From a virus: DNA of 37,588 nt. This document shows positions 296 to 37,588 of the stretch, one piece after another. Numbering within the stretch: the first letter of the stretch is position 1; every line of letters begins with the position of its first letter. The translations under genes and the position numbers were made by a program. Location of the stretch: IMG/VR virus record IMGVR_UViG_3300047310_000500, positions 1 to 37,588 of that record; one strand, given 5' to 3'. The notes under the pieces were generated by a model. The model searched no databases. It was given only the letters and a program-made list of their open reading frames with translations, and had not been told where the DNA came from.

Positions 296-812
296 TTCCC
301 ACGATTTCTTAGTCGTGATCTTAGTCGTGATTTCTTTTACTGGGTTAAGCGTGATAGGGAACTATCCTGGAATCCCGGACAGTTCAAAGACGGACAGCTC
401 TCCCGCGCGGGAACTTGGGATATATTGGTAATGACTTGTATATTAAAAGAAAAATATGATAGGATTAATTTCCAGCTGAAACGAGGAATGTCTCATAAGG
501 CAAGAGGTTATTTCTGTATTCTTATTGGCTGAGAAAAGGACCTTAAGCATGAACAGCTTGATCCGTTGTGCCGTAAAACCTCGCTATTAATGGCGGGGAT
601 ATACGGCATGGATAACGTCATTGTCCTGTATTAAAATTCCCTTGCTTTTCAACAAGGTCTACCGCCGGGCTGGCGGAAAGTAACGCCTTTGGAGATACGA
701 GCAGCTGAAGTAAGGCGCTCGGCCTAGGAACCCACTGAAGCGATCCGTCGATAACCAAGATGGACGCCGTAGGAATCCACTTCCTTTAGGGAGTGGAGGA
801 TGTCAATCTGTA
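296..812 (+). ncRNA. Candidate large structured non-coding RNA
   Basis: This gene-free stretch is visibly richer in G+C than its surroundings and packed with hairpins. They include GATAG-GGAA-CTATC (353-366, a GNRA tetraloop); nested ATCCC/GGGAT (372-376 with 417-421) and AGTTC/GAACT (381-385 with 411-415) around CCCGCGCGGG; TGCCGTA/TACGGCA (569-575 with 602-608) enclosing CCTCGC/GCGGGG (579-584 with 593-598); CCTTG/CAAGG (640-644 with 653-657); CCGCC/GGCGG (662-666 with 672-676); CGCCTT/AAGGCG (684-689 with 712-717); and an 8-9 bp stem with loop TTTA (776-797). Several stems are continuous only if G-U pairs are allowed on the plus strand (581-596, 782-791, 568-609), and the GNRA loop also reads on plus, so I favour the plus strand. 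Size and phage setting recall the large ornate phage RNAs GOLLD and ROOL, but I recognise no family. The ends are approximate and no convincing promoter was found. Confidence 0.5.
308..331 (+). repeat. Perfect 12-bp tandem duplication
   Basis: CTTAGTCGTGAT occurs twice in direct succession (308-319 and 320-331). The preceding CACGA (300-304) can pair with either TCGTG, so two alternative hairpins are possible at the 5' side of the structured RNA candidate. Confidence 0.85.
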
Positions 813-816
813 GTAC

Positions 817-939
817 CTATCTATGGTCTTTAAGTCTCTTCCTAGAGCGTTCGTTTATTCGTTTCTTTCTATTTCGTTCATCCTTGGTTTTGGCTTCTTC
901 CATTCTTTTTTTATTCTCTTTATCATATTTCTTCTTCAT
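817..939 (-). CDS. Tiny highly basic protein (40 aa)
   Basis: A 40-codon reading frame starts MKKKYDKENK and ends RKRLKDHR. About half of the residues are Lys or Arg, interspersed with Glu and Asp, so it should form a charged helix. A GGAG ribosome site lies about 8 bases before the ATG. The gene directly follows the terminator-like hairpin at 958-1006 and is the last gene of the packaging-fibre block. Such peptides may bind nucleic acid or be packaged with DNA, but no function is known. It could be chance, although the ribosome site argues for a real gene. Confidence 0.55.
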   Translation of the reverse strand: MKKKYDKENKKRMEEAKTKDERNRKKRINERSRKRLKDHR

Positions 940-4878: not shown

Positions 4879-5136
4879 TTAAATATTTGGATAGGTATCC
4901 AAGTGGTTAAAGGTGGTAGACTGTAAATCTATTGGCTCAGCCTTCGAAGGTTCGAATCCTTCCCTATCCACCATTGCTTTTTTGAATTTTGATTGGAATT
5001 CTTCAGAATGGAAAATATCTAGAAGTGATCCTAGTTCTTTACGCGAAACTTTATTAATCTTATTTAAGCGTGATTGTAATCCACGCTTTCTAATAGGATT
5101 AATAGCGCGAAGAGCAATTCGCAAATTTCGTTTCAT
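4879..5136 (-). CDS. Small basic ORF whose 3' third is antisense to the tRNA (85 aa)
   Basis: The first 55 residues (from MKRNLRIALRAINPIRKRG) are basic and have a GGGAGAT ribosome site. The remaining 30 residues are read from the strand opposite the tRNA-Tyr, giving the REGFEPSKAEP-type string typical of spurious tRNA-antisense peptides. Its N-terminus resembles that of the next upstream 44-aa ORF (shared KRNLRI), suggesting a duplicated gene. Either the tRNA inserted into the end of a real small gene, or only the N-terminal part is meaningful. Confidence 0.4.
   Translation of the reverse strand: MKRNLRIALRAINPIRKRGLQSRLNKINKVSRKELGSLLDIFHSEEFQSKFKKAMVDREGFEPSKAEPIDLQSTTFNHLDTYPNI
4889..4973 (+). 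tRNA. tRNA-Tyr (anticodon GTA)
   Basis: An 85-nt class II tRNA. The acceptor stem GGATAGG (4889-4895) pairs with CCTATCC, followed by discriminator A and an encoded CCA (4971-4973). The anticodon loop CTGTAAA places GTA at 4923-4925. There is a long variable arm, and the T arm GAAGG-TTCGAAT-CCTTC is perfect. It lies on the plus strand inside a minus-strand late block. A normal tyrosine decoder, it may support translation of Tyr codons or be a relic of recombination with host DNA. There is no integrase that would use it as an attachment site. Confidence 0.95.
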
Positions 5137-17289: not shown

Positions 17290-17342
17290 TTATCCACAGG
17301 TTACTAACAACTTATCCACAGGTTATCCACAGGTTATCCACA
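17290..17342 (+). promoter_or_regulatory. Cluster of four perfect DnaA boxes
   Basis: TTATCCACA, a perfect match to the TTATNCACA consensus, occurs at 17290-17298, 17312-17320, 17323-17331 and 17334-17342. Start-to-start spacings are 22, 11 and 11 bp, so all lie on one helical face. This is strong evidence for binding of host DnaA, presumably to start replication. Confidence 0.9.
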
Positions 17343-36804: not shown

Positions 36805-37506
36805 TTATCTGTTGCGCATCATTTTACGTAAATCAGCAACCGAATTAGAGCCATTATCTAAAGAATTAGATGAAGGGGTAATTTGGCTCATAGGTTCATT
36901 AGGTCGTTGCTGATTTTTAGCATTTTCGTTCAGTTTGATAGATTCAGAAATTTTACGCATTGCATTAAAAGCACCTTCGGGATCTGTTTCGGCAATTGAT
37001 AACATGGCACCTTTTTTGATATCATTTGTAGCTAATTCATAAATGATATCGCCAGTATTATCAAATTGACTCGCTAAGTATGCTAAACCTGTATAGCGAT
37101 CATGCGGAAATGATTCTAAAACGGTTTTTTGTTCTTCATAATTTGGAGAACTTCTCATCCTCTCAAAATATGTAGATGCAATTTGTTTAATCTCTTCTTG
37201 ATCTCGTCGTTCTTGCTCTTTCTCGTATGCTTGTGTTAACGCACGCTGTACTTCCTCAGAAACCGTATTCCTTAAATCAGGAGCAGAATATTGCTGTGAT
37301 TGAGGCGCAGAATTCTGATTATAGTCAGGAGCATAAGATTGCTGTTGTTGTTGCATTTGCAATACATCACGACGCGCCTTTTCGGCTGCCGCATGTTTTG
37401 CATTTACAATCAACTCATTAACCTTCGATTGCGGGATCATCTGTTCAGTTTGCTGCATTTCTACAGGCGCCTGAACACTCAAACCTTCTAATGATTCTTG
37501 AGACAT
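36805..37506 (-). CDS. Capsid scaffolding protein (233 aa)
   Basis: A highly helical, Gln-rich protein lying just before coat, ending in a basic helix (VADLRKMMRNR) of the type that binds P22-like coat. It should direct procapsid assembly and then leave. The first 15 codons also appear at the start of the window (1-45) because the genome is circular. P22 scaffold is longer (303 aa). No sequence motif beyond layout and charge pattern is decisive. Confidence 0.75.
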   Translation of the reverse strand: MSQESLEGLSVQAPVEMQQTEQMIPQSKVNELIVNAKHAAAEKARRDVLQMQQQQQSYAPDYNQNSAPQSQQYSAPDLRNTVSEEVQRALTQAYEKEQERRDQEEIKQIASTYFERMRSSPNYEEQKTVLESFPHDRYTGLAYLASQFDNTGDIIYELATNDIKKGAMLSIAETDPEGAFNAMRKISESIKLNENAKNQQRPNEPMSQITPSSNSLDNGSNSVADLRKMMRNR

Positions 37507-37588
37507 ATATACCCTCTAATGACTATAACCATCACGTGGACAACCCTCGGATCTCCCGAGTGGAGATAAAACCCCCATTGAGAATGGG
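37462..37588. repeat. Right copy of 127-bp terminal direct repeat
   Basis: Identical to positions 1-127. Joining the two ends gives a continuous scaffold gene leader, so nothing is missing between them. Confidence 0.95.

Follow-up and report, generated by a model that had tools for sequence, protein, structure and literature searches.

The window, by which we mean the whole stretch of DNA that was analysed (37,588 nucleotides), carries portal, terminase, head and RecT genes of a phage. Because its two ends form an exact repeat of 127 bases (1-127 = 37462-37588), the phage genome is probably a closed circle of ∼37,461 bp (about 37.46 kb); the record may be classed linear despite this repeat, and 127 bases is also common as an assembler overlap. 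A tRNA-Tyr (GTA) gene lies among the late genes (4889-4973, plus strand), and DnaA-box-like clusters of TGTGGATAA/TTATCCACA have been seen at 132-151 and 17290-17342 (2 and 4 copies), with similar repeats in the related contigs L083 and L089; they are possible replication origins. The first kilobase is gene-poor, as a sequence-only reading of the window had remarked, and no open reading frame in 1-1048 is as long as 60 aa. A basic 40-aa reading frame (MKKKYDKENKKRMEEAKTKDERNRKKRINERSRKRLKDHR) on the minus strand at 817-939 has its stop-codon end 11 nt from the element described below, is overlapped by the predicted guide, and has no relative in 41 related contigs, which were recognised by a TerL of 45-64% identity or, in one case, by the portal.

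The structured part of the window has been located at 563-806 on the plus strand (244 bp). A structured RNA of ∼500 nt had been proposed for 296-812, and the proposal holds for this right half, whereas 296-557 folds no better than shuffles. Taken as a whole, 270-830 reaches a z of -3.10 on the plus strand and -2.37 on the minus strand, of which the former would agree with a single new phage RNA of ∼500 nt in the manner of GOLLD or ROOL. The signal is uneven, though, with z -0.89 for 296-557 alone (46 of 200 shuffles fold as well) and z -2.69 for 563-826 alone, so that roughly one half of the 500 nt proposed is unsupported as structured RNA. Since the fold signal is confined to the transposon, the left half has chance-level matches only, and an Rfam search of 1-1300 at E ≤ 10 yields neither GOLLD nor ROOL, a single RNA of this kind, and the likeness to those two families, is very improbable. 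The stems of the 3′ half are genuine, that at 568-609 being a transposon left-end palindrome and that at 776-797 a right-end hairpin, and the G-U pairs from which a strand direction had been read (581-596, 782-791 and 568-609) are all present. The distinct local composition is likewise borne out, with a GC content of 51% in 563-806 vs. 34% in 807-1050 and 37% genome-wide. The conserved stems contain no GNRA tetraloop (the loop of the right-end hairpin is UUUA), and the words “large” and “undescribed” do not apply to a scaffold RNA of ∼150-170 nt plus guide that belongs to the TnpB omega-RNA/reRNA scaffold class. A match to a known element, which the sequence-only reading had itself named as speaking against its proposal, does exist, namely to an IS200/IS605-type element.

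The stretch 563-806 is very probably an IS605-type orphan that carries the scaffold of a TnpB guide RNA (Table 1). In blastn searches, 600-830 matches the 3′ ends and right ends of IS200/IS605 tnpB (InsQ) genes, in 1,333 plasmid records, in 4,749 E. coli genomes out of 5,426 and in some phages. Most of these matches span the last 40-90 bases only, and a few comprise the whole scaffold outside any tnpB (Allochromatium tepidum, Paenalcaligenes faecalis and two E. coli plasmids), the closest full-scaffold relatives being only ∼70% identical to the window copy. A separate blastn search has matched 541-611 to left ends of the same element type, at 76-80% for those adjoining tnpA/tnpB in four loci (L001, L003, L005 and L008). 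Left-end and right-end matches combined give the layout TTGAT^CCGTTGTGCCGTAAAACC-palindrome-GGGGATATACGGC ... scaffold ... GGATGTCAA^TCTGTAGTACC, in which carets mark the element boundaries; the aligned left ends read TTTAT^CC[AG]GTGCGCC in E. coli and TTGAC^CCGGTGCGC in the Burkholderiales orphans. TTGAT, which is both the TnpA target and the TnpB TAM of ISDra2 (PMC8612924), stands at the place expected for an insertion without target duplication. The empty site has been found neither in viral contigs nor in genomes, because the collections searched contain no close relative of the phage. The insertion lies in an intergenic gap in the late region of the TnpB-less phage. From left to right end the 244-bp element is complete, too short for a protein gene and free of any transposase, and the subterminal palindromes at both ends are homologous to those of autonomous IS200/IS605 elements; it is a non-autonomous, PATE/MITE-like IS200/IS605 element, which has lost both protein genes and kept both transposition ends. 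A hidden tnpB has been rejected, all three plus-strand frames being broken at 600-820 and no TnpB family occurring in the genome.

Table 1. Features of the orphan element and its flanks, in window coordinates.
Feature	Position	Strand	Basis
TTGAT, predicted insertion target/TAM, phage side of left boundary	558-562	+	Alignment with other left ends
Left end (LE), imperfect palindrome, stem 568-609	563-611	+	blastn; inverted repeat 569-591/586-608
Candidate promoter TGGATA-17-TAAAAT	609-637	+	Consensus match only, 9/12; placed like the TATAAT box of other orphans
5′ hairpin P0, CCTTG-CTTTTCAA-CAAGG	640-657	+	Shuffle p 0.10 in the window alone (weak)
TnpB omega-RNA (reRNA) scaffold including transposon right end (RE)	657-806	+	Held-out covariance model; covariation
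Scaffold hairpin 1, CCGCC-GGGCT-GGCGG	663-677	+	Helix 1: 100% of cells paired; 4/5 pairs with double changes
Scaffold hairpin 3, GCG/TCCGTC...GATGGA/CGC	740-767	+	Helix 4 (plus poorly aligned helix 5)
RE hairpin TCCACTTCC-TTTA-GGGAGTGGA	776-797	+	Covariation helix 6
Element end ...GGATGTCAA	798-806	+	GATGTCAA invariant in 25/25 aligned copies
Predicted 16-nt guide TCTGTAGTACCTATCT, flank-derived	807-822	+	Position by homology; guide length per PMC8612924

A search with a scaffold-core pattern has returned 14 stretches in genome contigs and one further viral contig. In an assessment of conservation on 14 copies of the scaffold, standard pairs make up 91.6% of pair cells; shuffles reach 84.5% and slid controls 28-48%. 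Both sides have changed in 11 of 33 pairs, which amounts to 24 such cells against 4.9 expected and is matched by none of 500 shuffles, the relatedness of the copies inflating these figures; helix 5 is poorly aligned in this test (37.5% paired). The stronger test is a covariance model built on 13 copies from other organisms with the window excluded, whose sole match in the 37.6 kb is 657-806 (129.2 bits, E 1.3e-29 as a rough value), on the plus strand that had been correctly assigned from the letters. A structured, strand-specific RNA fold with covarying stems, which had been proposed as the check, is supported for 657-806. In Rfam nothing has been found at the gathering threshold in the window, GOLLD and ROOL included, and for authentic tnpB loci of the same type Rfam 15 likewise stays below threshold; the guide RNA is missing from this collection, and therefore such elements read as unknown structured RNAs. 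With open thresholds the same check gives weak matches only. The 3′ half of the scaffold (725-819) weakly resembles HgcC (RF00062), with 23.6 bits against a gathering score of 50, and this match, which has been rejected, is probably due to a right-end hairpin of similar shape. HgcC may itself be an archaeal TnpB guide RNA; a literature search has found no paper that links the two. The non-significant match of 655-797 to sot0042 (13.7 bits, E 0.84), the sotRNA model (RF02656) of a haloarchaeal omega-RNA family (PMC12558985), was a first hint of an omega-RNA identity.

Neither the TnpB Zn-ribbon domain (PF07282) nor the Y1 transposase TnpA (PF01797) has been detected in the phage genome in searches whose controls worked. 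Because PF07282 is absent, the element is an orphan of the omega-RNA family and not a cis-encoded member, and the guide RNA of a phage without its own TnpB would therefore need the nuclease of the host. No nuclease-dead TnpB homologue (TldR) linked to the scaffold has been found in a Zn-ribbon family search, which a highly diverged TldR without this domain could escape. The scaffold is absent from all 41 related phage contigs, many of these loci being fragments, and no close copy of the element occurs in 369 genomes from the class of genome G004, among which the host was sought via the closest element.

Elsewhere, the same scaffold forms orphan elements of ∼250 bp in proteobacterial chromosomes, plasmids and viral contigs. 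Of 13 genomes in which scaffold copies (mainly orphans) occur, 9 have TnpB, and Y1 TnpA is present in 8 of the 10 tested. An orphan guide together with the nuclease that presumably serves it in trans is seen most clearly in Yanghanlia caeni. One of its contigs carries three identical orphans of 249 bp, and a full tnpB element (C24:33045-34590), with 95% identity to the orphan in the left end and 93% in the right end, encodes a TnpB of 406 aa with intact RuvC motifs (GIDMG, IEDL and NADVVGA). Joining the Yanghanlia flanks leaves the frames open, but random deletions often do so too, so that the open frames are no proof of exact boundaries. A right-end pattern scan of viral stretches has returned at least 82 sites in at least 80 stretches. 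Among the matches listed, at least 60 have tnpB within 1.7 kb and at least ten, with enough upstream sequence, do not, and orphans, though the smaller group, are thus no isolated accident among them; several of the ten have a recognisable scaffold, the rest the end hairpin only. TnpB-type right ends with scaffold-like sequence and no tnpB within 1.7 kb have been noted in viral contigs L106, L111, L122, L140, L148 and L157. The matches in HK97 and PhiR12_3 were set aside as short right-end-like hairpins in which no scaffold has been recognised. On the E. coli plasmid pZH177-3 (L003:2358-2630), a tnpB-less TTTAT^CC...GGATGTCAA element with full scaffold adjoins a hok gene, and so an orphan guide exists in a genus accessible to laboratory work. 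The plasmid pRM10042-1 (L004:2281-2311 and 2501-2630) has, ∼300 bp upstream of its orphan scaffold, another copy of the right end, as a nested or a tandem insertion.

Upstream of the scaffold, tnpB-bearing elements have coding sequence (e.g., L027/L050), and the orphans have a conserved -10-like box (TATAAT, TACAAT, TATAGT or TATGAT; TAAAAT in the window). It is followed in most orphans by a 5′ hairpin whose arms are spelled differently from copy to copy: GTCGGC with GCCGAC, GCTGCC with GGCAGC, GCCAGC with GCTGGC, and CCTTG with CAAGG. The arrangement is poor in L021 and L024, absent from the E. coli orphans and non-significant in the window alone. The shared box and hairpin suggest a transcription of the orphans' own; since no good -35 has been seen across the family, the promoter is an inference only.

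In ISDra2, a reRNA of ∼150 nt carries a 16-nt guide derived from the flank and acts with a TTGAT TAM (PMC8612924). By analogy, the guide TCTGTAGTACCTATCT at 807-822 is predicted to recognise the empty site of the element itself. A TTKAT-flanked match to the 16-nt guide has been found in none of 84,980 species genomes, and neither the phage itself nor related phages hold a match above chance, the best among TerL relatives having 6 mismatches, which is chance level. Matches of 18 nt in three viral contigs represent one homologous site without a TAM and are about as expected by chance, and a blast match in a coding gene of Bacteroides phage DAC17 (E 0.02, 39 nt) has been taken as chance. Consequently, with no TAM-flanked target found elsewhere, targeting beyond self-retention is unsupported. 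These results bear directly on an exapted, trans-acting guide, with which the phage would steer a host TnpB, or a TldR repressor, at other DNA such as a rival phage or a gene of the host. The scaffold is intact, as this would demand, and a phage-encoded TldR with a guide RNA that regulates flagellin has been published (PMC13418256); against the empty target searches in species genomes and viral contigs, a guide that is simply the insertion flank, and a phage without tldR or tnpB, we consider such a function improbable.

The best explanation, to which we assign a probability of about 0.6, is a host-TnpB-dependent retention or homing guide on a non-autonomous IS605-type element. The element would descend from a tnpB-bearing one that lost its protein genes internally and inserted 3′ of TTGAT. 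Transcribed from the small candidate promoter inside it, the scaffold with ∼16 nt of right flank would be bound by a TnpB from the host or a co-resident element, and the complex would cut TTGAT^TCTGTAGTACCTATCT, i.e., the empty site, be it one vacated by excision or one in sister or co-infecting phages without the element. Repair after the cut would restore or spread the element, and TnpA in trans could mobilise it. For the phage copy we infer expression, TnpB loading, cutting and homing, and the weakness of the promoter and of P0 in this copy counts against them. The main rival, which we hold to be possible but not likely, is passive decay of a remnant: the element would be the scar of a transposon, its hairpins surviving in the role of DNA ends or of a terminator, and its guide RNA would be neither expressed nor loaded. 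This reading would account for the lack of TnpB and TnpA in the phage, for the weak promoter match and for the missing guide target in genomes, viral contigs and related phages, and transposase-free IS605 derivatives (PATEs) are indeed common in haloarchaea (PMC3119063). Such decay fits less well with helices whose sequences are unlike those of any relative and which still pair, with a scaffold, left end and right end that appear complete, and with a -10-like box at the same place across the orphan family. The fold of the element may simply have yet to decay.

TnpB is the ancestor of CRISPR-Cas12, and its guides are regarded as a by-product of tnpB; for IscB, free-standing omega-RNAs have been described. 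At the time PATEs were described, TnpB guide RNAs were, to our knowledge, not yet known. No literature on orphan TnpB guides has been found, though key papers may have escaped the search and priority is not excluded. The recurrence of orphan scaffolds with an apparent promoter in genomes that also encode a cognate TnpB suggests that one nuclease serves several guides in trans, which would be a move in the direction of the effector/guide split of CRISPR. Extending the homing reading beyond this phage, we tentatively propose, as a reading that is possible but not likely, that free-standing, protein-less and mobile TnpB guide-RNA genes in bacteria, plasmids and phages parasitise TnpA and TnpB in trans, and that in a phage they act as RNA-only homing elements for which the host nuclease cuts sister genomes without the element. 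If true, the phage-borne copy would be a homing element carrying no protein.

With the ISDra2-type omega-RNA/reRNA (Karvelis et al., 2021, PMC8612924), the phage element shares a right-end scaffold up to the transposon boundary, a guide taken from the flank, a TTGAT that precedes the left end and the restriction to the plus strand; it differs in that element and phage lack tnpB, that no coding gene overlaps the scaffold, and that an apparent promoter of its own and a 5′ hairpin precede it. The PATEs of Haloquadratum (PMC3119063) are equally short and protein-less, with near-terminal palindromes and a deleted IS605 core, whereas the phage element keeps an intact guide-RNA scaffold and its kind occurs in a phage and in proteobacteria. 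The sotRNAs (RF02656, PMC12558985) take the same position within the transposon, but in haloarchaea they overlap tnpB, and the sequences are not recognisably homologous. Prophage TldR guide RNAs (PMC13418256) are likewise phage-borne guides of the TnpB superfamily; TldR systems encode their own protein, whereas the phage element encodes none.
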